From positions 1 to 25,651 of the IMG/VR virus record IMGVR_UViG_3300003690_000329: a stretch of DNA of 25,651 nucleotides. One strand, written 5' to 3'. Each line of letters opens with the position of its first letter. Positions within the stretch are counted from its first letter, which is position 1. The notes under the pieces were generated by a model. That model did not search any database, was not told the origin of the DNA, and worked only from the letters and a program-made list of their open reading frames with translations. Positions 1,386 to 25,651 of the stretch are shown here, piece after piece. Origin of the DNA: a virus. The position numbers and the translations under genes were made by a program.

Positions 1386-3614
1386 TTATTCGGCTTCCAG
1401 CGGCAATGCTTCGCGACCACCCTGGCGCCCGATATCCGCATTCTCTCCGTACTGCTCGGCCAACTGCTGCAACCTTTCCAGGCGCGACTGAAGAATTGCG
1501 GTACGGTCCTGGGCCAGGCCCTCAAATATCTTCGGGTTCTGCTGCTGGATCGCCTGGTAATGCTCGATGCGCAACTGGTAATTGATGCTACCGTCATCCG
1601 CAAGTTCAGGTTCCTCGCCACCCAGGATGGTTTGATACGCTTTCCGTTCGTCATCGATTTCAGTCTCCCGGGATTTCTCGACATTGCGGATTGCACTCTG
1701 TGCAAGCTCGGGCTGCAGTCTCCAGAACAGGTTGGCAATAACGGGTGACGGGTCGATGGTCTTCTCGCGATCCATCGGCATGAGGACATTCATTATGGTT
1801 TCTCCCACGAGCTTGAGATATTCGGGATCGAAGTCCCTGGGATCGAATGTTAATCGGATATCGTATTGCCCCTGGATCTCGTCTCGAGTCCGCGCCACCG
1901 GGTTGCCCTCGTCGTCCGTAATCCGTACCAGGGTTTCCTCGGGGATGTATTGCTGGATCAACTGCAGCATCTGCATATGAACTTCTTTCAGGTTCGCCAA
2001 CCACCACATCACCTTGAATTCCCGGTGTATATTGACCAGGTCGGCGGACACCTCATCACCCGGGCGGCCGTGGTACTCATCGATCTGCCGGCGAATCTCC
2101 TTCATCATCTCATCCACCTGGGCGGGATATTGCGGGGGAGACAACCACTGGAAATCGCCCTCCCGTTTAGCCTGCAGCTCGGCCAGGGGTTCGATGTATA
2201 AGGCACCCTGATTCTTGCGGCCGCGTGTCACCATCGGTGGAACCGCAGTGAGCTGTGCATTATCCCCGAAACTGTCGGAGTACATCTTGAGAAGATCCTG
2301 GTGCGATCCCGCTAACTCGGCAATGCCCCGGCTGTCCATCAGCCGGCTGTCCAGGACCTCACGCTGGAATGCGTGACAGGGATAATTGCCGTGTGCGTAG
2401 TCGAGCACTCGCGCATCGGTTGCCGCGACCTCGATATCCGCGTGGAATGTCACATAGTAAATCCCGACCACTCCGTCCTCGTTGCTGTCCCTCCAGTAGG
2501 CAGTCACAACCTGATACATTTCGCGGGATGCATCCATGTTCTGATTGACCAGGTTGCCGTTCTTGTCGCGGACTTTTTGCGAGAACGTCACCACCCCGGC
2601 CTGGCCTCTTTCGTCTTCCTTGCCGATTAAATCCTCCACGAATGTATCGGACCATCCGAATTCAATTTGCCTCTGCAGGACTTCGGTTCTGGTCAACCAA
2701 TCGGGTTCAAAATAGACCCTGGTCCGTTGGAATTCTATCGTGCTCGAGGGTATGAAACAGTCCTCGTACAGGCGTTTCGCATTCAGCTCGAGACCGTTGT
2801 ATTTCAGGTATGGCGCCGGGAATCTAGCGGACCCTTCTTCCCGCAATCCCTTGATGACTTTCCGCGCACGTTTCGTTTTAACATACGGGAAGAAATTCTG
2901 GAGGATCTCGATCAATGCATCTTCACCGTATGCATCATCAGCCAGGATCTCGAGGAATTGCTCCGCAGCAACTGATGCCTCTTGCTCCAGGTCTTCCTGG
3001 CTCACATCCTCGGCGCCCCTGGCAAATCCATCCATGACGACCTGCAGGTACAGGTCCATCAATTCCTGGGCCGTCAGGGTTTTCATCTCGAGTTGGGTCT
3101 CCTGTCGCCAGGTCACCCCCATCACTCCCACGGCCGGTGAATCCCCGAAGGTATATTGCGCGAGTTTGATCAGCTCACGCATGTATCGATATCCAAGCTG
3201 CGTATCGCGGACCCAGCGGAACACGGTCTCCATCCGTGAGACTGCGGCCACATCATTTTCCCCAACCCCCACCATGCTGATTCGCGCTCGCATCGATGCC
3301 AGGACAACCAGCATCATGTCCTCGTTAATCAACATGTCGGTGATGCGGTGACGGCCGTCTACCGCGCCCTCGAAGGGCATCACCGGCTCATCGTTATTCT
3401 CGTCGGCATGCTTCCTGCCGTCCGAACTCTGGCCGGCCCAGATGCACAACCGGGTATTCCACGAGTCGATTCGATTGTCCCACAACCCGCTTTCCCCACC
3501 AGCCACGATCTCATCAACTTCACCCTTCAGCCACCCCAGGAGTTTGTCATCGACTGCCTGGTCGCCACCATCTCCCTGCACCCCATCGTCCCGCGTTTTC
3601 TTTAGTTTGGCCAT
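1386..3614 (-). CDS. Phage portal protein
   Basis: This 742-residue protein has the length and pattern of podovirus-type portals, the dodecameric ring at the unique capsid vertex through which DNA is packaged and ejected. The N-terminal part includes WDNRIDSWNTRLCIWAGQ. The middle mixes hydrophobic strands and helices, including the PCHAFQREVLDSRLMDSRG region. It ends with a long helical tail (SRLERLQQLAEQYG) typical of a portal barrel. I chose the ATG at 3614 because it overlaps the upstream TAA as TAATG. An in-frame start 18 codons earlier exists but would run deep into the upstream gene. Adaptor, scaffold and capsid genes precede it in the same operon. Portal usually comes before scaffold and capsid, so its position after them is unusual. 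Confidence 0.88.
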   Translation of the reverse strand: MAKLKKTRDDGVQGDGGDQAVDDKLLGWLKGEVDEIVAGGESGLWDNRIDSWNTRLCIWAGQSSDGRKHADENNDEPVMPFEGAVDGRHRITDMLINEDMMLVVLASMRARISMVGVGENDVAAVSRMETVFRWVRDTQLGYRYMRELIKLAQYTFGDSPAVGVMGVTWRQETQLEMKTLTAQELMDLYLQVVMDGFARGAEDVSQEDLEQEASVAAEQFLEILADDAYGEDALIEILQNFFPYVKTKRARKVIKGLREEGSARFPAPYLKYNGLELNAKRLYEDCFIPSSTIEFQRTRVYFEPDWLTRTEVLQRQIEFGWSDTFVEDLIGKEDERGQAGVVTFSQKVRDKNGNLVNQNMDASREMYQVVTAYWRDSNEDGVVGIYYVTFHADIEVAATDARVLDYAHGNYPCHAFQREVLDSRLMDSRGIAELAGSHQDLLKMYSDSFGDNAQLTAVPPMVTRGRKNQGALYIEPLAELQAKREGDFQWLSPPQYPAQVDEMMKEIRRQIDEYHGRPGDEVSADLVNIHREFKVMWWLANLKEVHMQMLQLIQQYIPEETLVRITDDEGNPVARTRDEIQGQYDIRLTFDPRDFDPEYLKLVGETIMNVLMPMDREKTIDPSPVIANLFWRLQPELAQSAIRNVEKSRETEIDDERKAYQTILGGEEPELADDGSINYQLRIEHYQAIQQQNPKIFEGLAQDRTAILQSRLERLQQLAEQYGENADIGRQGGREALPLEAE

Positions 3615-4531
3615 TAACTGCTTGCGCTTCCTACCACCCTCAAGACGGGTGTGGGTGAGCTGCTCCAAACGACCCTTCGGCGTAATCCCTGGAGGTCAGT
3701 CTTGCGGTCCTGCAGATTCGCCAGTGCCCTGTCCGCGATAGCGTTCTCGCGGCCGGCCACCTCTGCGTCCTCCTGAATCTGGTCGGCATTGGTCGCATGT
3801 TTGATGAACGTGATGAACATATCGGGAAATTGAGTCGGCTCCCAGTAGGCAGTTTGCTGATCCGGTGTCTTGCCGGTGGATGAGGCAATCGCCGTATAGC
3901 TGTCACCAGCCGAGGACAGGTACGCAGTGTCACCGACTGCGTATGCCGTGGTTGCGTCCCAGTCGGTCCAGGAATAGGTCCGCGCCGGCGGCAGGAACTT
4001 GATCCACGGTTTCAGGGGCGCCGTGGTCGTCCTGACGATGATGTTAGATCCCAGGATCCCGATATCCGACAACGGTTGCGTGTCGCGATATATCCTGGGG
4101 TCCCGGTCAAATACGGATCCGGACACATCTATGTAGCCAATCTTCGATTCACCGGACTGCGTGAAACTGATCGACCGCACAAATCCATCACCCACAACGG
4201 ACCAGAACGTGGTCTCGGTATCCGGTTGCTTGTTCGTGTTATCGGCCAGGCTACTCGCAACATAATATGACCCTTCGCCATCTGAGTCCTCGTAGTAAAC
4301 TTCGTCGTTTTCGCTGTAGAGAAGGGTTGCGTCCCAGGACGCACGGTACTGCCGTTGCTCGACCAGCATTAACTCATCCCAGAAATCGTGCGTCCAAGCC
4401 TCGATCATGCGGTCATTCACCAACTCGGCAACGACCGTTTTGTCCCGGGCGCTCAAGTCGGCCGTATCGGGATCATAATTACGCAACCTGACAATCGACT
4501 CAAATACACGCTTTATTGGTATATCAGCCAA
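3614..4531 (-). CDS. Head-tail adaptor-like protein with two CBM5/12-like modules
   Basis: This 305-aa protein starts with ATG at 4531, and its stop overlaps the portal ATG. The N-terminus (IKRVFESIVRLRNYDPDTAD and the following helices) and the helical C-terminus (EDAEVAGRENAIADRAL) resemble phage adaptor proteins that sit under the portal. Inserted are two modules of about 45 residues with the same pattern. One starts WDATLLYSENDEVYYE and ends TTFW. The second starts WDATTAYAVGDTAYLSS and ends QTAYWEP. This W-x(5)-Y-x(3)-D-x-V/A-Y ... K-P/T-P ... W layout is that of carbohydrate-binding module family 5/12. The adaptor assignment rests on position and helix pattern. The module resemblance is clearer. 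The modules could decorate the virion neck and bind glycans. Confidence 0.65.
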   Translation of the reverse strand: MADIPIKRVFESIVRLRNYDPDTADLSARDKTVVAELVNDRMIEAWTHDFWDELMLVEQRQYRASWDATLLYSENDEVYYEDSDGEGSYYVASSLADNTNKQPDTETTFWSVVGDGFVRSISFTQSGESKIGYIDVSGSVFDRDPRIYRDTQPLSDIGILGSNIIVRTTTAPLKPWIKFLPPARTYSWTDWDATTAYAVGDTAYLSSAGDSYTAIASSTGKTPDQQTAYWEPTQFPDMFITFIKHATNADQIQEDAEVAGRENAIADRALANLQDRKTDLQGLRRRVVWSSSPTPVLRVVGSASS

Positions 4532-10488: not shown

Positions 10489-11118
10489 CTATAGGTCGAG
10501 TTCTTGTTGGGTGGCAGCATCACAATCAGGCTTCGTCCATTGTTCCGCGAATGCTTCCGCGATTCCTTGATAGGTCTCGCTTCTTCTCTTCGCACGGGTC
10601 GGAGAAGGGCCGAGTTTGTTCTGCCCACTCGGTGTCTGGTTGTCCCAATATCCGCGAATCGGGAGTGGCAGGACGCTGGTCGGGCGCAGTGGATCCAGCA
10701 TGTGCAGCCATAGGCCGGTGCGCTTTGACTCTGGATGTCCGAACTGCCACGGCTGAATCCATTGCGTTGCTCTCATGGGCAACACACCGACCGGGTTCTC
10801 TAACGCGACCCTGCGCGAATGCCGCAAGCATTCCCACCACAGGTTCATTGTCCACTCAATTGCTTCGATCCGTTCAGCGTGGCGAGACATGCCCTTGCCG
10901 TAATGTGCATTGCCACTCACTGCCAGTGCGGTGCAGGGTGGGTGTGCCACGATCAGGTCCCATTGCCTCGAACGCACGAGATCGAGGCAATCACCCATCA
11001 GGTGGTGCGGCGAGTCGTCGTCGGACGGTTGCAGGTCACAACTCCATGCGTTGTGGCCGCGCCGCCGAAACGCCTCGCGGCTTCGTCCGCTCAACTCGCA
11101 TGCTATGAGTATATTCAC
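10489..11118 (-). CDS. Short cytosine-methyltransferase-like protein
   Basis: The SAM-binding first strand and loop are NILIACELSGRSREAFRRRG, followed by an acidic second strand (WSCDL). A PPC motif in the context AHPPCTAL matches the catalytic Cys motif of C5-cytosine methyltransferases, and LENPVG matches their ENV-type motif. A phage-typical KRTGLWL lies further on. I chose GTG at 11118 (about 209 aa), just before the first strand. An in-frame GTG at 11163 would add 15 residues encoded partly by a GGAC repeat. At this length it lacks a clear target-recognition domain, so it may modify DNA with low specificity, use a partner, or act on something else. It follows dnaB and precedes TerL, fitting protection of phage DNA before packaging. 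Confidence 0.72.
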   Translation of the reverse strand: MNILIACELSGRSREAFRRRGHNAWSCDLQPSDDDSPHHLMGDCLDLVRSRQWDLIVAHPPCTALAVSGNAHYGKGMSRHAERIEAIEWTMNLWWECLRHSRRVALENPVGVLPMRATQWIQPWQFGHPESKRTGLWLHMLDPLRPTSVLPLPIRGYWDNQTPSGQNKLGPSPTRAKRRSETYQGIAEAFAEQWTKPDCDAATQQELDL

Positions 11119-11135
11119 AATGGATCTAATTTCTT

Positions 11136-11155
11136 GTCCGTCCGTCCGTCCGTCC
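11136..11155. repeat. Tetranucleotide repeat (GTCC)5
   Basis: Five uninterrupted copies of GTCC on the plus strand (GGAC on the minus strand) lie between the two possible GTG starts of the methyltransferase-like gene. Perfect tetranucleotide tracts at 5' ends can slip in replication and change the frame or start context. Confidence 0.9.
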
Positions 11156-11201
11156 AGAAACACGCGATATTAAGCAATAAACATGCGGGTTTCCGCTATT
11201 A

Positions 11202-11238: not shown

Positions 11239-12723
11239 TCACTCGATACTCACTTGCGCCCAGGACTCATCCACCTCCCACTGTGGATCCTTACTGGATG
11301 CTTCTGATCTACTACGATTCGCGTTCTGCAGTGACTTCACCTTGGTTTCCCAATCGCCGAAATCATCCCCTGTAGGCCCGACCGCAAGCTCGTTCTCGAA
11401 CCGGAAATAGTGCGGCCTTAACCACCAGGTCGTGGCTCGCACATCTCCGTTCTTATGCTTCGCCAAAACGATTCTCGTCGGACGCAGTTTCCGCGTGGAG
11501 TCGGGCATCATCTGCTCCATCTGCTCGTTGATTTTCATGTCCTGGAATATCAGCACCACCTTGTGGGCATCCTGCTCGAGCGATCCGGAATCACGCAGGT
11601 CAGACAATTTCGGAGCACGTTCGCTCTTGTCCACTTCGCGTGAGAACTGGGACAGCACCAGGATCGGGATATCGAGTTCAAATGCCAGGGCTTTCAACAT
11701 GCCGCTAATGTAGGTCGTGCGAGCATTCGCTTCCCACTGACTCCGTCCCATGTCGGATGCCTGTACTATCTGGATGTAGTCAACCGTCAACAGGTCGAGC
11801 CCGTGGCGCATGTGATGCATTCTGGCCCACGAGCAGATCATCCGGATGTCCCGCTCCTGGTCCGTGATATACATCGGGTATCCACCTATCTCGCGTGCCG
11901 CATTCTTTACGACATCCATTTTTCCGTACACATTTCCTCCCTTGAGCTTGGGCAAGCTGACCCCGGCCTTGCGGCACACATCCCGTTCCAGGATCTCCTG
12001 CCGGCTCCCGTCGAGCGTAACTCGACCGACATGATACCCGGCCGCCGCGAGGCTCTCCGAGATCTGGCCCTCGAGCGTTGTCTTCCCCGCACTCGGCCGG
12101 CCGGCCAGGATCGTGATACCCGTCTCGAGGCCGCACATTACCTCGTTCAGCTCATCCAGCGGCACCCGCAGACCCAGATCCAGATCGCCGGCCGTGGCTC
12201 GTGTCCACCTCTCCACGGATTTCTCGAGGACCTGGGTATTCGTTTCATCCTCCTTATCGGGCTCCGCGATATCGATGAATCGTTGCGGTATATCCCGCAG
12301 CAACTGCTCCCCGTTCTCCACCTCGTGCGCCTCGCACTCCGTCTTGCGGCAGATATCTATGATGTGACGTTGCACCCACCTCTGGCGCACTATGTCGAGG
12401 TAATGTTCACCATGCGAGGCTGTCGGCGTATCGTCTATCAGCCTGTTCAGGTATCCGATCCCACCCATCTCATCCAGTTGGTTTTTTGATTTCAGGTGTT
12501 CGCTCAGAGTGAGAACGTCAACCGGGCGCCACTTATCGTCATCCTGGAAGGACATCATGGCCTCGAAAATAATGCGGTGCGCCGGCAGATGGAACGCAGT
12601 GGCCGACATCCTGACCTGGTGAATCGCAATCGGCAGCAGCCGGTCGGCTTCCAGCAGAATCGATCCCAGGGCGCCCCTTTCAGCCTCCTCCGAAAAGGGA
12701 ACCTGTCGTATTTCATTCACCAT
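11239..12723 (-). CDS. dnaB: Replicative DNA helicase, DnaB family
   Basis: The 494-aa product has the normal DnaB length and layout. An N-terminal helical domain (SEEAERGALGSILLEADRL) is followed by a linker and a RecA-like ATPase. Walker A is at 207-216 (AGRPSAGKTT), Walker B at 311-316 (LLTVDY), the SQFSRE motif near 358-364, and DLRDSGSLEQDA at 375-386. As a hexamer it unwinds DNA at the replication fork. The usual SLEMS motif reads TLDGS (D238), so the catalytic Glu is replaced by Asp. The gene starts 3 nt after the oxygenase stop and lies downstream of the initiator gene, which presumably loads it. Confidence 0.92.
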   Translation of the reverse strand: MVNEIRQVPFSEEAERGALGSILLEADRLLPIAIHQVRMSATAFHLPAHRIIFEAMMSFQDDDKWRPVDVLTLSEHLKSKNQLDEMGGIGYLNRLIDDTPTASHGEHYLDIVRQRWVQRHIIDICRKTECEAHEVENGEQLLRDIPQRFIDIAEPDKEDETNTQVLEKSVERWTRATAGDLDLGLRVPLDELNEVMCGLETGITILAGRPSAGKTTLEGQISESLAAAGYHVGRVTLDGSRQEILERDVCRKAGVSLPKLKGGNVYGKMDVVKNAAREIGGYPMYITDQERDIRMICSWARMHHMRHGLDLLTVDYIQIVQASDMGRSQWEANARTTYISGMLKALAFELDIPILVLSQFSREVDKSERAPKLSDLRDSGSLEQDAHKVVLIFQDMKINEQMEQMMPDSTRKLRPTRIVLAKHKNGDVRATTWWLRPHYFRFENELAVGPTGDDFGDWETKVKSLQNANRSRSEASSKDPQWEVDESWAQVSIE

Positions 12724-12726
12724 TTG

Positions 12727-13434
12727 TCAGTATCCTCTTCGTCGTGATTTTTCAGTTGGACATCCGGTGATCTGGCATGTCCATTTCGGAACAATGCCGG
12801 CATTGACAGATAAATGATACATCCCGTAATCCCATGTATACATCTCTCCTGCTTTCCAGTTCGACACCACGCTATTGCCTATCTGCACGAAATGACCCCA
12901 GTGCCAGTCTTCGAGGAAAAGCAAATAGCGTCTTATGTTTTTCCGATCTTCTTCTAATAGGTTTCCCTTCTTAAAGTTTGCCTCATATGTATCAAAATGC
13001 CACGGATTCGTCTGTCCTGGGTCTTGCCGGAAACACGCAATTGTCACATGATCAAGTCCAATAAAGGATTTGATTAAATCAAACTCATCCGGCAGACCGT
13101 CCCGCGAATCTGTCCATTGGGTGTATTGACTGTTGTGTTCGTTGTATCCGTGCCTGATGTGGTCCAGCTTCGCGGCCCCGATTGAACCGGGATCCAATTG
13201 TGATGGAATTAAAGTGCCATTCACAAAATCCTCCGGATACAGGTCAACACCAGTTTCGACATCCTTGTCTTCCAGTTTAGATTTTATATCTGCAAAATCC
13301 ATTCCGACTATCCGGAATAGCTGAAGTTTCCCGACATACTGAACATCGGTCGTTGGCTCGGTCGGATCATAGTGCCAGTCTCCGGTAGATTTCTTGTACT
13401 CCAGTAGGCTTTCGTGGTCTTTATTCATATTCAT
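12727..13434 (-). CDS. Putative 2-oxoglutarate/Fe(II)-dependent oxygenase
   Basis: This 235-aa protein shows the iron-binding facial triad pattern: H146-F-D148 in NPWHFDTYEANF, and a distal H207 in MYHLSVNAG. Lys217 in KWTCQITG is a candidate for the 2-oxoglutarate salt bridge. The strands between (RRYLLFLEDWHWGHFVQIG, WKAGEMYTWDYG) fit a double-stranded beta helix, most like aspartyl/asparaginyl or prolyl hydroxylase-type enzymes. The substrate is unknown. Its start overlaps the end of the aminotransferase-like gene by 14 nt, so the two are coupled. Base composition is AT-richer than the flanking replication genes, suggesting later acquisition. A non-catalytic DSBH protein is a less likely alternative. 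Confidence 0.68.
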   Translation of the reverse strand: MNMNKDHESLLEYKKSTGDWHYDPTEPTTDVQYVGKLQLFRIVGMDFADIKSKLEDKDVETGVDLYPEDFVNGTLIPSQLDPGSIGAAKLDHIRHGYNEHNSQYTQWTDSRDGLPDEFDLIKSFIGLDHVTIACFRQDPGQTNPWHFDTYEANFKKGNLLEEDRKNIRRYLLFLEDWHWGHFVQIGNSVVSNWKAGEMYTWDYGMYHLSVNAGIVPKWTCQITGCPTEKSRRRGY

Positions 13435-14329
13435 CCCCCATATCGCTCATCAGTTTTGAAATGCATACCCTTCTCCATTCGGTTCCTCGATTATAACTTC
13501 CGAACTCCTTGTGTGTCTTGTCGGTTATCCCGAATGACACACAGTCGCTGGGTTCTATTTTAAGAGATTTGCATATATCCTCCTGGGACTGCCTGTATTT
13601 GTCGTTGGTGTAATCGGCATCGAATGATTGGCATAACTCGCGACCGACCCCGGGCGATATCTTGGACAACATCCCCATGCCCGTGAACAGATCCACCGGG
13701 TCGTCGTTGTGTGTTCTCTTGCAGCGCATCCCGATCCGCAGTCGCTCGGCGCCGTAAAACCCCTTACTCATGCTGAACGATATTCCCTGGATGCAGTCCC
13801 GGTCCAGGTGGAAGTCCAAACCTCTCGCCATTGAGTAATAGGCGCAGTCGATGAACACCGGGACACACTGCTCGTCACATGAATCCAGAACATCCTGCAT
13901 ATCGGGATGCTCGGCGCCGTAATCGCTGAAGGGCAACGAGATGACCACCGCATCACCACAGCTATATGAACTGCGTCTTCGTATGTCATCATCCTCGATA
14001 TATGACCAGCCGGGATAGTTGTTTCTCCATGAGAGTTCGTGATAGATGAAATCTCCCCTGAAGCACCTCATTCTTCGTTCTCTGTTTTCCGCGTAAAAGA
14101 AGTCGAATGCCTGGGATGTGCCGTGAACAAATCCCAGTTTGTTGAATTTATCCAGGCCGTGAACCGTGTTCAGACGGCTCGTTTGCAACCAGGCATAATA
14201 GGTGTCAAGGAAATCGGATATGATTGTTTTGTTATACAACCAGCCCGAATGAATGTGTCCGCTGATGAAGTCAAAGACCTTCGCATCGGGGATCGGCCTG
14301 GATTTCCTGCCATCAAACACGGATCTCAA
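13421..14329 (-). CDS. Compact PLP-dependent aminotransferase-fold enzyme
   Basis: The 302-aa protein carries the landmarks of a fold-type I PLP enzyme. HGTSQAF (69-75) matches the cofactor phosphate loop. FIDCAYY has D161 for the pyridine nitrogen and Y164. SFSMSKGFYGAERLRIG has K189 in the Schiff-base lysine position and a following Arg-rich S-x-S-K...R-x-G pattern. Near the end WRRVCIS (R287) resembles the substrate carboxylate-binding Arg. It is about 100 residues shorter than typical class I/II aminotransferases, mainly in the small domain, so activity is likely but not certain. Substrates are unknown. It is coupled upstream to the initiator (ATGA overlap) and downstream to the oxygenase. 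The amino or keto acid it makes may feed the oxygenase. Confidence 0.7.
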   Translation of the reverse strand: MRSVFDGRKSRPIPDAKVFDFISGHIHSGWLYNKTIISDFLDTYYAWLQTSRLNTVHGLDKFNKLGFVHGTSQAFDFFYAENRERRMRCFRGDFIYHELSWRNNYPGWSYIEDDDIRRRSSYSCGDAVVISLPFSDYGAEHPDMQDVLDSCDEQCVPVFIDCAYYSMARGLDFHLDRDCIQGISFSMSKGFYGAERLRIGMRCKRTHNDDPVDLFTGMGMLSKISPGVGRELCQSFDADYTNDKYRQSQEDICKSLKIEPSDCVSFGITDKTHKEFGSYNRGTEWRRVCISKLMSDMGDEYE

Positions 14330-15069
14330 TCTCCCTGAAATTGCACCGGCATATAGCCGCCGGTTTCTTTATTATTAGCCTTATTCACCTTCTCATCCTT
14401 GACATCGATCCAGTGGTCCTGGTTTAGAAACGTAGTCGGATGGGGTACGAATTGCCCATATTCCTTGGTCCACGCTTCTTGGATCTTCCACCATCTCAGC
14501 CCGGCAATGACATCCACCACCGACTCATCCAGACGCTTCTTCTTCCAGATCCTGAAGGCAGCCGCTTTTTTTACCTTCCTGTCACCACTCGGCCACTCAT
14601 TCCAAAACAATGCGAATGCTTCTGAATAAACGTACTTGAGTTTTCCAACCGTATTACTTTTATCCTTCCCATTCTTCCCTCTTCCTTCTTGGTTAGGTGC
14701 CCCTCGGGTGCCCTCCGGGTGCCCTTCGGGTGCCCCTGGGGTGCCCTCTAGGGTGCCCTCATCACCTCGGGATATGTCGAAAATGCTTTTATCTATTATC
14801 TTAGCCACGGTTCCCAAGGGTGCCCTCCTGAGTGCCACAATTTCCCACTTTTCCAATTGGTTTTTTGCTGTTCTGTACTCTTTTTTCGTTAAACCCACCG
14901 AGGCGTAGTCCCCGATGAGCGCCTCACCCTGGACCAGGCCGATCTTGTTTGGCGTGTCTGCCGATTTCTGGCAGCGGATCGCGATCTGGGCGAGCAATGC
15001 GAACGCTTTGGGCTTTTGGAGTATCCGCTTTGTGTTGTCACTCTCCATAAACTTCACGAAATACTGCAT
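14326..15069 (-). CDS. Replication initiator / helicase-loader (lambda O-like)
   Basis: The N-terminal domain (YFVKFMESDNTKRILQKPKA, then LIGDYASVGLTKKEYRTAKN) is a winged-helix pattern seen in phage replisome organisers. A Gly/Pro/Glu-rich linker (GTLEGTPGAPEGHPEGTR) joins it to a C-terminal domain. That domain has FALFWNEWPSG, the Trp-rich GLRWWKIQEAWTKEYG and the end motif HPTTFLNQDHWIDV, a combination recurring in phage helicase-loading proteins. I prefer ATG at 15069; a TTG five codons upstream is possible. The linker DNA contains six 11-bp repeats that may be the origin, as in lambda, where the O gene contains ori. It is followed, after the two-gene cassette, by dnaB. Confidence 0.78.
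   Translation of the reverse strand: MQYFVKFMESDNTKRILQKPKAFALLAQIAIRCQKSADTPNKIGLVQGEALIGDYASVGLTKKEYRTAKNQLEKWEIVALRRAPLGTVAKIIDKSIFDISRGDEGTLEGTPGAPEGHPEGTRGAPNQEGRGKNGKDKSNTVGKLKYVYSEAFALFWNEWPSGDRKVKKAAAFRIWKKKRLDESVVDVIAGLRWWKIQEAWTKEYGQFVPHPTTFLNQDHWIDVKDEKVNKANNKETGGYMPVQFQGD
14695..14828. repeat. 11-bp iteron array, candidate phage replication origin
   Basis: Six tandem 11-bp units of consensus GGGTGCCCTC(N) run from 14695 to 14760. A seventh, identical to unit two, is at 14818-14828. The period is not a multiple of three, although the array is inside a gene, so the DNA repeat itself seems to be under selection. Eleven bp is about one helical turn. A/T-rich DNA (14770-14805) lies between the array and the seventh copy, and a polypyrimidine run (14654-14691) lies on the other side. 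Both could serve as unwinding regions. Confidence 0.75.
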
Positions 15070-15131
15070 ATGATGTCCGATCAATCCGATAAATGGCTAC
15101 AGGACGGGTTCTTGCTGTGTTGGATTCGCGA

Positions 15132-17336: not shown

Positions 17337-18566
17337 ATGACGCATACAGAGCAATACAAATTAGTCCCGGTGACGGACTCGCGCAACAAGCGCATCCCTA
17401 ACCTGTTTAAGCGCAACGGGACGTACTACCTGCAAGCCACGATCAACGGCACACGGTATCTACGATCCGTTCCGCACGATACCCAGACCGAGGCTCGGTC
17501 CTGGGTGAAGGCATTCATCAGGACTGCGAAGGAAGCGCGTTCCGATGGTCTACAGGCCCTTGAGGACTCGAAGGCGAAGACGGCATACCCTACGCTAGGG
17601 CGCCTCTTCGACCTCTATATAGATGCCTCGGCAAAACGCCGGGCCACTGAGGATGGGCGGCCACTGGAATCCACCGTGAAGCGCAACATCGCTCAACTGC
17701 GTAATGTCGTCAGTCAGGCCACTGGCCTCGAGAACGGCAAGGTTGCCGAATTCTCGACAGAGAAGCTGACCGACGACCTGGTCGATGTCTACGTTCAGAA
17801 GGTCGTGGAGGAGGCCGGCGATAACCATCTGCTCCAGCAGAAGTACCGCAACACGGCCGCATCGACTCTTCGCCAGGCCAAAAGCGTGTTCGCCAAATGG
17901 GTGGTCCACTACTACTCGAAGGCCGGTGTGAAATTGCCGCCAGGCATCGATTCATTCCTGACGCATGGTCCGGTGATACGCCGCAAAAAGTACCAGTTGC
18001 CGCCGAAAGCACTGATCAACACCACCCTGGCCGAAGCGCAAAAGCTGAAAGAAACGCGCCCGGATCTGTACCTCATCTTCCTGCTCTGCTACCACACTGG
18101 TCTGCGAGCCGGCGAGGCTGCAGCGGCTCGGTGGGAGTGGCTCGAGGATGTGGGAGTGGACGGTAACACCCATCGTTGCATCTCGATTAAGGCGCGGGAG
18201 TATTGGAAGGGCGCAAAAAACCATGTGTCCCACAAACCCCCGCTGACGGATGCGATCTGGGATGAGTTTCAGGCGCTCAAGCCGGCCGAGGCCGGCGACC
18301 TGGACTTCATTCTGCCGCCCGACACACCGACCGGCCGCGCCAACCTGATCGGCCGCACCTTTTCATCCTGGCTCAACTCAATTGGATGGAGCGATTACGG
18401 CAAGTCGGCGCACGAGCTACGCAAACTGGCCGGCTCGATCTGGTACACCAAAGTGGACCTGAAGTGGGCCGCATCCTGGCTCGGAGATAACCTGCAGACG
18501 GTATACGATTACTATGCCGATCTGACCGAGCAGCATGCGCCAGTCGATCTGTCCAAGCTGGACTAA
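17337..18566 (+). CDS. int: Tyrosine site-specific recombinase (phage integrase)
   Basis: This 409-aa protein has the order arm-binding region, SAM-like core-binding domain (about 85-200) and catalytic domain. R257 lies in HTGLRAGEAAAARW, K294 in WKGAKNHVSHK is a candidate catalytic Lys, H359-E-L-R362 is in AHELRKLAGS, and the nucleophile is Y393 in TVYDYYADL. The usual LGH motif reads LGD (D384), replacing the second His/Trp position, a change seen in some phage integrases. It integrates and excises the phage genome at attP/attB with Xis. ATG at 17337 has GGAGG 8 nt upstream. A likely attP lies about 3.6 kb downstream rather than beside it. Confidence 0.9.
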   Translation: MTHTEQYKLVPVTDSRNKRIPNLFKRNGTYYLQATINGTRYLRSVPHDTQTEARSWVKAFIRTAKEARSDGLQALEDSKAKTAYPTLGRLFDLYIDASAKRRATEDGRPLESTVKRNIAQLRNVVSQATGLENGKVAEFSTEKLTDDLVDVYVQKVVEEAGDNHLLQQKYRNTAASTLRQAKSVFAKWVVHYYSKAGVKLPPGIDSFLTHGPVIRRKKYQLPPKALINTTLAEAQKLKETRPDLYLIFLLCYHTGLRAGEAAAARWEWLEDVGVDGNTHRCISIKAREYWKGAKNHVSHKPPLTDAIWDEFQALKPAEAGDLDFILPPDTPTGRANLIGRTFSSWLNSIGWSDYGKSAHELRKLAGSIWYTKVDLKWAASWLGDNLQTVYDYYADLTEQHAPVDLSKLD

Positions 18567-22293: not shown

Positions 22294-25200
22294 TCAGAGG
22301 GCGCCGGCCGGTATTCGGGGTCGGTTCGTGCTTTCCCTGTTGGCCGCCTCGAGCGCCTTGCGAATAACAGAGGGGACACGTTCGTCCTGCCGCTCGGCCT
22401 CCTGGTGGAATCTCTCCAGAAAGTCCTTGCTCCGCGTTTGTTTGCCAATCACCACTTCCTTCAGGAACTGCAGCTTCCCCTTCTTAAACCCAGCATCCCA
22501 CATCTCCGATAATTTCTGTGCCTTCTGCCCTGGAGTAAACCTCTCGTATTTATATTGATTATAATCGTTGAAATACTCGCGCCGGGCATCTCCGATCAAC
22601 TCTTGGAGTCGTTCGTATTCCTTGGGCTCAAGCGGAACCTTGGTGCCTTCGAGGACCTGGGCGCGGGACGGTATAGTCGGGATAGCCTCAGCCCGATGCC
22701 CGCTTTCCTCGTACACCTTTCCGATCTCCTGCCAGAGCGGATCATCCTTGATCCACCCAGGCTTGTCGGCTCTGAAGAGATGATACATCCAGGGTGAAAT
22801 GCCATCGGGAGTCCGCTCAATTTTTTGGCCCAGCCCATCCCGCTTGAACGGGAATGCGGCATGCCAATCGATGAATACGTTCTTCTCGCGGAACGCATTC
22901 TTGATCGCATGCCACTCCTCGTTCGACTTCATGTCCGGAATGAAAACCTGCCGGGATCTGTTAATCTCGGCCAGGACCCCGGGCATCGCAATAGCGCCTA
23001 TCACCCTGAAATAGTCCTTGCTCACCATCTCGTAGTCGCCGGTTATCATCGCTTCGAGGACATTGTAGCCCCCTTTGAGCATGGTCATATCCATCATCGT
23101 GCTCCCCAATTCCGGAAGCATCTCGACCACAGAGTTCATCTCAGATTCAAGAACCGACCTATCCCTGGCTCCGATCAGACCTGCATCGATATCCTTTTGC
23201 TCCTGACGCGCACTGTTGGCCTTGATCACTGCCGCAATGCCCAGGACACCGAATAAAAATGCGTTGCGCCAGACATCACCTTCCTCGATCAATTCGCCGG
23301 TCGCATCGTACTTTGCTGTCCTGGGTGTGGGATCACCACCGGTCATAGCCCGCCACAGGCCAGAGGTATTGATCGAGGTCGGGCGCCCATTCGCATAATC
23401 CAGGGATCTCAGTTTATCGTCGTCGTCTGGGGTGCCGGTTGCAAGCCCCATTTCAACGAGAGTTGCAGCTATCCCGTTGATAAACATCCCGAACACGGCA
23501 GTCGATAGCATGGTCATCCCCTTGCGATATTCATCGGCCTGTAGCCGGCGATGATTCTCGGTCGCATACCGGTTCGATGTATCACGAGCGGCCTTGGCAT
23601 ATTTGCTGGCCTGGGACATATGGTAGAACGCCCTCGCGCCGGCCAGGGGTGGGTACAATACAGTCAGGGCATGTGATGCGACATTCACGGGAGTGGTCTT
23701 GAACGGTACAAATGGAGAGACGAACAGCGCATCAATCCAATCCCCAACCACCGTCTTGCGGGGAGCATTGAAGAGACCCATGACCCCTTGCAAAACCAAG
23801 CCCTGCTTTTGATAGACAGCCTCGAGCGACCGGTCAAGGGCGATGCGCCGGGTGGCCGGATCCGGATTCCGCATAAACACTTTGCGCTCGTTTCCCTTGA
23901 GTTTCCGAAGACTGGCCTCCTGGCCCACCACATCCTGATAGACAGAGTCTCTGAACGGATGGTCGCCCAGGCCCAGCAATCGGAACTGGGTTTCCGCCGG
24001 GATCGCAATGGTTGCTTCTACCATCAGCTTGAACCAGTCGTCCATGGACACCCGGCCGCTCGGCAGTGTCGGCACCAAGCCCTTGCGCTTTGATTTCTTC
24101 CTGAATATATCAGCCCCAGACGAGAGCAGCTTGACGAATGCCCTTAACGGATGAAATCCACGCACCATAAGCTCACCGTGAATCCCCGTACCCGGCTCGG
24201 CGCCGGTCACCAGTTCCCGGCCACCTCGTTTCAGGCCCTTACTCGCGCCCTCTAGCCGGTCACTTGGAGTCTTGAACGCAATAGATCGTGGGCGCCGGGC
24301 TATCAGGGCGATCAACGCATCGGCCATGACGGCTGCGTTGTGAGCCATATCATCCACGAACATTCGGATCGTGTTGGATGAAATATTGATCCCGTGCGAG
24401 CGGAACACGATCAGGTTGCCCTGCTGCAGTTGCCGTATCATGTCAGGCATCGACCTGGGGGGCAGTGCGTCTGCCACTCCAAAACTAAATGCCCTGAGAG
24501 CCTTATCAGCTTCATGCTGGGCTATATCGAAGGCTACAATATCCTCGTCCGACAAGGTCTTGGCCATCCTGTCCTCGGCCACCTCGAGCGCCTTGCGGGC
24601 CGCCACATCTGCATCGGCCAGGGCTTGGATCTTCTCACGGGACGCTTCAGACAGCACCTTGCCGCGTGACTCCACACTCTTGGCTATCACGGCAACGATT
24701 GTTGCGGGATTCTTGGCCCGGCTCTCCGCAAACTGACGGACCAATTGCGCGGCTTGCATGCCGAGCGCATCCATCTCGTCCATGACCGCACTGAAGTCCT
24801 CCTTCAAAAGGGCAACTTCTTCAGGGGCGGTAGCGGGATCATCAATTCGGGTGCGGATCCGGTCCAGCAGCTCGAGTCCGTCGAGCACGGCAAAATTATC
24901 CTCCGACTCTATGACCAGGCCGGTGACTGCATCACGAGTCCTGGCGCGTAAGCCGGCCAGCAACCCCTCGTCGGACATGGTCTCTTGGATTTCCCGGCGC
25001 TCACGGTACGTTTGCGGCCGGTAATATGCACCAGGCCGGCCCTGGAGATCTTCGCGTTCTGCGCGGTTGATGCCCACCGGATTGGGCTGATCAGGATCAA
25101 CCGGTTCGCCGGCCGCACGTTGCGTGAACCGGTGCCTCTCGAGCTGGGCTCGGGCATTCTCGGCTCGGGCCTTGGCTCGGGTGGCGGGAGCTAGGGGCTC

Positions 25201-25651
25201 TGCGGTGGCCGCATCTGGTCGGCCAGGAACTCCTTCGCCTCCTTCGATGGCGCCGAGGGCGGCCCTTTCCTTGGAAGCGTCCCCGCCCAGTACTGGCGTT
25301 TCTTCTTGAACATTGCGTCCAACAGCGCCGGGTTGGTCGGCCGCTTCGGCCCTAATTTGGGCGCGGCCGGATCTAACACGGTTGCGCCTTCCCAGTTCTT
25401 CCTCCACTCTTGCCGTTCCTGTTCCGTATATCTGCGCTGTTTTGCCATATTCTGCCCTTTCGTAAACAATTGTACTAACCCATCTATGAAATGCAACCCC
25501 TACATTACCATGTCCCCGTATCTGTTCAACTGCCCTTTCTGCGTTTTCTGACCACTGCTGCGATCTATCACGGAAGTCCTCAATGTCCCCTAAATCCAAA
25601 TCGGAATCATAATCAGGAATATACTGAAAACGTAGGCCCAGGACCTTCCCC
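22294..25651 (-). CDS. C-terminal part of a giant polyvalent / internal virion protein (runs off right edge)
   Basis: The frame is open from the right edge to its stop at 22294, about 1118 codons, and the true start lies outside. The first 200 visible residues are Ala/Glu/Arg-rich and disordered. Coiled coil follows, then a segment starting SMDDWFKLMVEATIAIPAET and continuing to PFVPFKTTPVNVASHALTVL. That pattern is typical of the C-terminal region of large phage polyvalent proteins delivered with DNA. Two hydrophobic stretches (about 23462-23520 and 23226-23270) could be membrane segments. The end is helical and charged (FLKEVVIGKQTRSKDFLERF). It is probably a virion protein ejected into the cell. 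No enzyme motif is seen in this part. Confidence 0.72.
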   Translation of the reverse strand, partial: GKVLGLRFQYIPDYDSDLDLGDIEDFRDRSQQWSENAERAVEQIRGHGNVGVAFHRWVSTIVYERAEYGKTAQIYGTGTARVEEELGRRNRVRSGRAQIRAEAADQPGAVGRNVQEETPVLGGDASKERAALGAIEGGEGVPGRPDAATAEPLAPATRAKARAENARAQLERHRFTQRAAGEPVDPDQPNPVGINRAEREDLQGRPGAYYRPQTYRERREIQETMSDEGLLAGLRARTRDAVTGLVIESEDNFAVLDGLELLDRIRTRIDDPATAPEEVALLKEDFSAVMDEMDALGMQAAQLVRQFAESRAKNPATIVAVIAKSVESRGKVLSEASREKIQALADADVAARKALEVAEDRMAKTLSDEDIVAFDIAQHEADKALRAFSFGVADALPPRSMPDMIRQLQQGNLIVFRSHGINISSNTIRMFVDDMAHNAAVMADALIALIARRPRSIAFKTPSDRLEGASKGLKRGGRELVTGAEPGTGIHGELMVRGFHPLRAFVKLLSSGADIFRKKSKRKGLVPTLPSGRVSMDDWFKLMVEATIAIPAETQFRLLGLGDHPFRDSVYQDVVGQEASLRKLKGNERKVFMRNPDPATRRIALDRSLEAVYQKQGLVLQGVMGLFNAPRKTVVGDWIDALFVSPFVPFKTTPVNVASHALTVLYPPLAGARAFYHMSQASKYAKAARDTSNRYATENHRRLQADEYRKGMTMLSTAVFGMFINGIAATLVEMGLATGTPDDDDKLRSLDYANGRPTSINTSGLWRAMTGGDPTPRTAKYDATGELIEEGDVWRNAFLFGVLGIAAVIKANSARQEQKDIDAGLIGARDRSVLESEMNSVVEMLPELGSTMMDMTMLKGGYNVLEAMITGDYEMVSKDYFRVIGAIAMPGVLAEINRSRQVFIPDMKSNEEWHAIKNAFREKNVFIDWHAAFPFKRDGLGQKIERTPDGISPWMYHLFRADKPGWIKDDPLWQEIGKVYEESGHRAEAIPTIPSRAQVLEGTKVPLEPKEYERLQELIGDARREYFNDYNQYKYERFTPGQKAQKLSEMWDAGFKKGKLQFLKEVVIGKQTRSKDFLERFHQEAERQDERVPSVIRKALEAANRESTNRPRIPAGAL
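25191..25448 (-). CDS. Possible overprinted small gene inside the giant ORF, 85 aa
   Basis: A second minus-strand frame opens at ATG 25448, with AAAGGG upstream, and runs 85 codons to TAG. Its product (MAKQRRYTEQERQEWRKNWE, then KRPTNPALLDAMFKKKRQYW) is protein-like, with three Trp and GC-rich third positions. The giant frame in the same stretch is low-complexity. Either this is a real overlapping gene or a chance open frame. I cannot decide. Confidence 0.35.
   Translation of the reverse strand: MAKQRRYTEQERQEWRKNWEGATVLDPAAPKLGPKRPTNPALLDAMFKKKRQYWAGTLPRKGPPSAPSKEAKEFLADQMRPPQSP

Follow-up and report, generated by a model that had tools for sequence, protein, structure and literature searches.

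Which role could be played in a phage by two overlapping genes, one for an aminotransferase-like enzyme (AT) and one for an oxygenase-like protein (OX), that lie between the genes of its replication initiator and its replicative helicase? The DNA analyzed here (the window) is the 25,651-base virus record IMGVR_UViG_3300003690_000329, positions 1 to 25,651. AT (302 aa) is encoded at 13421..14329 and OX (235 aa) at 12727..13434, both on the minus strand, and according to the ORF coordinates the end of AT overlaps the start of OX by 14 nt (13421..13434, minus strand), overlaps of this kind recurring in most relatives. The coordinates and the overlap agree with the initial annotation, as do the positions of K189, D161, HGTSQAF, H146, D148 and H207. 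The replication initiator (14326..15084, minus strand; phrog_270, E 2.6e-18) is directly upstream of AT, and the DnaB-like replicative helicase (11239..12723, minus strand; PF03796, E 7e-50; phrog_19, E 4e-63) directly downstream of OX after a 3-nt gap; since both flank AT and OX on the same strand, the pair sits inside the replication operon. The link between the initiator and AT had been described as ATGA, however, the junction reads TTGA: the TTG start codon of AT sits inside the initiator stop and is preceded by a Shine-Dalgarno-like AGGGAG, and the ATG start of OX is preceded by a similar GGGGG. Downstream of the helicase a DNA methyltransferase family protein is encoded (10489-11163; phrog_757, E 2e-53), and an integrase is found at 17337-18566. 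Two large ORFs, 1386-3668 (760 aa) and 22294-25599 (1101 aa), have no PHROG match, and the phage is far from known phages. No relative of the window helicase was confirmed in IMG/VR, hence there is no closely related phage with which the operon could be compared.

The GC content is 45.3% in OX (100-bp windows down to 37%), 49.6% in AT, 50.5% in the initiator, 57.0% in the helicase and 55.3% in the whole window. The low GC of OX relative to the helicase, from which a later capture had been proposed, is real, but the drop is milder than first described and also broader, as it takes in the initiator. Later capture is judged probable.

AT is predicted to be a compact fold-type I PLP enzyme. The Foldseek matches shown for its AF2 model (pLDDT 93.1, with 30 aligned relatives as input) are fold-type I PLP enzymes, including HisC, CobD, ACC synthase and MppP (E 1e-9 to 1e-11, TM about 0.5-0.68). 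A search of the PDB with the single AT sequence gave no useful match, and the AT profile reaches HisC weakly (E 0.03). With PF00155 AT scores 19.5 bits, just under the gathering cut-off of 19.7, and because of this it is classified here as class I/II-like only, a proven aminotransferase not being claimed. K189, the putative internal-aldimine lysine of an SxSK motif, and D161, the Asp that would pair with PLP N1, are each conserved in 123 of the 125 aligned relatives (the remaining two being gapped), S188 in 119, Y164, three residues on from D161, in 113, and R287, a C-terminal Arg probably equivalent to Arg386 of AspAT and thus a candidate for binding the substrate alpha-carboxylate, in 118; R198 is listed with K189, D161, Y164 and R287 among the active-site residues. 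Structure prediction, Foldseek and the intact K189 and D161 agree in supporting the initial annotation of AT as a fold-type I enzyme. In aspartate aminotransferase the NPTG motif contains an Asn, N194, that contacts PLP O3'; in the alignment to HisC its position is occupied by S135 in AT, and by Ser, Ala or Cys in 120/125 ATs. The replacement of this Asn is characteristic of the AT family, therefore ordinary transamination is not assured.

OX is modeled as a double-stranded beta-helix (AF2, pLDDT 81.0, with a poor N-terminus), its best PDB fold matches being AspH (6yyy, E 2e-6 by Foldseek) with TM-scores of only 0.4-0.5. Among viral models, uncharacterized Caudovirales proteins and viral Asp/Asn hydroxylases match it best. 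The OX of the window matches no Pfam, PHROG or NCBIfam family (there is one insignificant Pfam line), while a member of its family at L019:4525-5109 scores 22.3 bits with PF05118, the cut-off being 22.6. As the window OX does not match PF05118, we classify it as AspH-like, and not as a member of that family. By sequence, the single OX has no useful match in the PDB, and the OX profile reaches AtsK weakly (E 0.005). The HxD...H iron triad is complete, with H146 and D148 in 28/28 relatives and H207 in 27/28, and R169, kept in 25/28, is a candidate for the basic 2-oxoglutarate (2OG)-binding residue. The predicted fold and the intact triad are in line with the earlier proposal of an HxD...H oxygenase.

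In the first relatives found (L001 and L002) OX lies directly behind AT, and alignment searches led to 50 viral loci and two MAG contigs. The AT relatives are 54-69% and the OX relatives 48-63% identical to those of the window, and they are adjacent and overlapping in other viral contigs. HMM analysis showed that OX adjoins AT in both gene orders; 84 adjacent pairs were obtained, 40 after removal of redundancy at 90% AT identity, and in most of them the two genes overlap by 8-62 nt. Across these 40 pairs the AT and OX distances are correlated with a Mantel r of 0.92, which none of 5000 permutations reached (best 0.25). AT and OX are, with near certainty as judged from these sequence comparisons, co-inherited; shared ancestry of whole cassettes is enough to explain the correlation, and our claim goes no further than co-inheritance. 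The search for homologs as neighbors, proposed with the initial annotation as a way to refute it, did not do so, the pairing being strongly conserved. The window has the order AT>OX; the order is not the same in all clades. Tandem copies with no OX next to them are found in a related AT subfamily: T4-like viruses (L030-L056, e.g. L037:6890-9415) carry a cassette of AT, a gene of about 155 aa with a weak LCI-fold match, and a second AT, next to an SbcC/gp46-like gene and one that looks GIY-YIG-like, and their ATs group together. In isolated phages AT was matched only weakly, in Pelagibacter phage Mosig, and OX only weakly, in Synechococcus phage S-SCSM2R, where the OX relative (L005:5845-7295) overlaps an annotated inosamine amidinotransferase gene inside a glycosyltransferase cluster. 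In eight pair loci AT/OX have as a neighbor a member of a family of roughly 400 aa (L012:4855-6117 and relatives) that neither Pfam nor PHROG matches convincingly.

A third gene, AMI, is conserved in many of these cassettes. Its product is an arginine:X amidinotransferase that matches the inosamine-phosphate amidinotransferase StrB1 (1bwd) at E 6e-84, and also AGAT, SxtG and HsvA. An IMG/VR search with AMI alone gave at least 466 contigs; among the best 80 viral loci, which were kept, AT is present in 77 and OX in 69, the order being OX>AT>AMI in all but a few, and after clustering at 90% AMI identity AT is present in 17 and OX in 15 of 18. A carbamoyltransferase (PF16861/PF02543) is encoded in one OX-AT-AMI cluster, at L115:3104-4897. 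No AMI was found among the ORFs of the window. In a tree of 43 AT sequences six AT>OX members, the window included, are on one side of a branch with a support of 100/99, neighboring the OX>AT and OX>AT>AMI lineages; the tandem-AT viruses form a separate group, and most Bdellovibrionota copies stand apart. On the contigs of the window clade (L007-L011, fragments of 44-101 kb) AMI was likewise not found. Because AMI partners occur with separate AT groups of the tree, the two-gene form AT>OX may be a reduction of the three-gene form.

The relatives of the window clade lie among SDR/epimerase-like and glycosyltransferase-like genes, a DegT-like aminotransferase and TPP-type enzymes, names which were read from the sequences and not from a family search, and a B12-radical SAM protein is also nearby. 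Other relatives are in clusters of T4-like viruses and Bdellovibrionota that are rich in radical-SAM genes, and those with the OX-AT-AMI triad are accompanied by twitch radical-SAM proteins. Neither AMI nor this glycan and radical-SAM setting figured in the initial annotation, which was based on the window only. In cells, an AT match at E <= 0.001 was obtained in 22 of 291 Bdellovibrionota genomes, about 15 of them strong; this survey is the only broad cellular test, as the AT patterns used in the genome-collection search were strict and under-count cellular copies. The copies fetched (L159-L170) often adjoin twitch radical-SAM-like proteins, and in L161 oxygenases of the Asp_Arg_Hydrox family (PF05118) and an amidinotransferase are near AT. 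PADLOC assigned no defense family to AT, OX or AMI; its viperin-like matches concern only a radical-SAM neighbor and are probably at the level of the superfamily.

We tentatively favor, with a confidence slightly short of even, that AT and OX are inherited together as a biosynthetic module whose product, a hydroxylated non-canonical amino compound, serves to tailor a surface glycan or a small molecule. OX would hydroxylate an amino-acid-like substrate by AspH-type C-H hydroxylation, and AT would act on the same compound, either as a transaminase or, in the manner of VioD following VioC, by alpha/beta chemistry once the amino acid has been hydroxylated. The StrB1-like arginine:amine amidinotransferase of most relatives would next move an amidino group from arginine to the amine so formed. 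Judging from the neighboring genes, glycosyltransferases or radical-SAM enzymes of the cluster would probably link the product to a glycan or small molecule. In this phage early expression of the two-gene form from the replication operon would let the pair tailor a host-surface or phage-linked glycan; alternatively, it may serve to make a small product from host precursors. Among the scanned proteins of the 25.7-kb window neither AMI nor the product of a glycosyltransferase or sugar gene was recognized, so that partners encoded elsewhere, by the phage or by the host, would be required to make such a product, which counts against the module. The NPTG Asn missing from nearly all ATs, the clade-dependent gene order and the tandem ATs lacking an adjacent OX are also counted against it. 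A wider proposal, which we consider somewhat more doubtful, is that OX-AT, with or without AMI, is the core of a widespread undescribed viral pathway for a hydroxylated, often guanidinylated amino building block, with a tie to twitch radical-SAM arrays in the T4-like viruses, and that this phage carries the minimal two-gene form.

The alternative that survives best, though unlikely, is that AT, OX and AMI act along with twitch/SPASM radical-SAM enzymes in a RiPP-like pathway, their substrates being side chains of a virion protein or a ribosomal peptide. Twitch radical-SAM proteins over the NF033640 cut-off were found on 18 of 24 related contigs tested, with up to 10 on one 76-kb contig, and peptide maturation is the role of many radical-SAM/SPASM enzymes (PMC11002830), which we count in favor of this alternative. 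Protein residues can be substrates of AspH-type oxygenases, and in L019 a tail-fiber-like gene is near the pair. However, no radical-SAM protein over the cut-off was found on the window-clade contigs L007-L011, no conserved precursor peptide was noticed in an unsystematic look, and the putative alpha-carboxylate-binding Arg (R287) of the ATs fits free amino acids better. The contigs of L121 (76 kb), L016 and L105 are examples rich in twitch-domain radical-SAM proteins, and a twitch radical-SAM gene near the OX-AT-AMI triad has one in-frame TGA in the contigs of L097, L099 and L105, and TAA in others; the TGA may reflect a pseudogene, an error or recoding.

It is somewhat less probable still that the pair is captured cargo, which worked in a donor cluster and is of little use in this phage. 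The GC of AT and OX is below that of the helicase, partner genes were not found on the record, and the nearest relatives sit in unrelated clusters. Against this, neither ORF is interrupted and every catalytic residue is in place, the tight overlaps of the two genes with each other and with the initiator suggest maintained co-expression, and a well-supported clade has kept the two-gene form.

The synthesis of a nucleotide- or DNA-modification precursor, suggested in the initial annotation and conceivable as a link to 7-deazaguanine chemistry, is improbable and disfavored by the gene context. A strong QueE match (E<1e-49) occurs on 12 of 20 related contigs tested, the pair is part of a replication operon and a DNA methyltransferase-family protein is also encoded in the window; however, strong QueE matches are missing from L007, L008 and L011 of the window clade and from L074, L107 and L115, which carry the gene triad (all fragments), and glycan and radical-SAM neighbors are commoner. 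DNA modification via 7-deazaguanine is disfavored by these absences. Least probable by our estimate is a generic auxiliary metabolic gene pair that balances 2OG and glutamate of the host, an earlier suggestion for which no result speaks: such oxygenases usually take 2OG as co-substrate and transaminases commonly use it to accept the amino group, but balancing leaves the conserved AMI, the glycan/radical-SAM clusters and the AT-OX co-inheritance unexplained.

As far as found, the AT-OX cassette is a real, conserved and apparently undescribed viral biosynthetic cassette of known enzyme kinds, of which the window holds the two-gene form. No account of the AT-OX pair or of the OX-AT-AMI triad was found among open-access papers, absence from which is not proof, and to this extent the initial statement that no phage system with this pair has been described holds. 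Many radical-SAM genes have been reported in T4-like marine virus genomes (PMC5332604), 2OG-Fe and radical-SAM genes are abundant in marine viruses (PMC7150976), and single viral amidinotransferases are entered in virome surveys under glycine amidinotransferase, K00613 (PMC8226683). In contrast to such single-gene annotation, a conserved cassette points to a dedicated biosynthetic pathway carried by viruses as a unit, and many aquatic viruses have AT and OX as direct neighbors. The small two-gene form makes the chemistry directly testable, and once the product is identified, one would learn what is built or decorated by these viruses in the course of infection.

Among known enzymes, the histidinol-phosphate aminotransferase/CobD family resembles AT in fold and in the positions of the Lys, Asp, Tyr and Arg residues, whereas the viral AT has Ser, Ala or Cys in place of the NPTG Asn and is only about 302 aa long. 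MppP, the PLP-dependent arginine oxidase of mannopeptimycin, is among the structural matches of AT, however, identity is only 12-13%, TM-scores are moderate (about 0.6) and the partner genes are different. The aspartyl/asparaginyl beta-hydroxylase family (PF05118) provides the best PDB fold matches of OX and is also matched by the oxygenases of the bacterial cluster L161, but the window OX has no Pfam match and has the full HxD...H triad. With streptidine (streptomycin) biosynthesis, in which an aminotransferase acts along with StrB1, the homolog of AMI in the three-gene form, the expected logic of amination followed by amidination is shared; streptidine aminotransferases are of the DegT type, whereas the viral AT is class I/II-like, an oxygenase is added and the window lacks AMI. 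VioC/VioD, which form capreomycidine in viomycin biosynthesis, are a known case of a class I/II-like PLP enzyme acting after a hydroxylase, and GntC, a PLP enzyme related to VioD, is annotated as a type I/II aminotransferase (PMC10367076). For paired enzymes of this kind acting on free amino acids, VioC/VioD are the closest precedent. Together with the arginine-cyclizing OrfR and GntC, they share with the viral pair the logic of passing a hydroxylated amino acid to a class I/II-like PLP enzyme, as well as guanidine chemistry; they are, however, enzymes of natural-product pathways of cells, OX of the virus resembles AspH, and the likeness drawn here is one of pathway logic.
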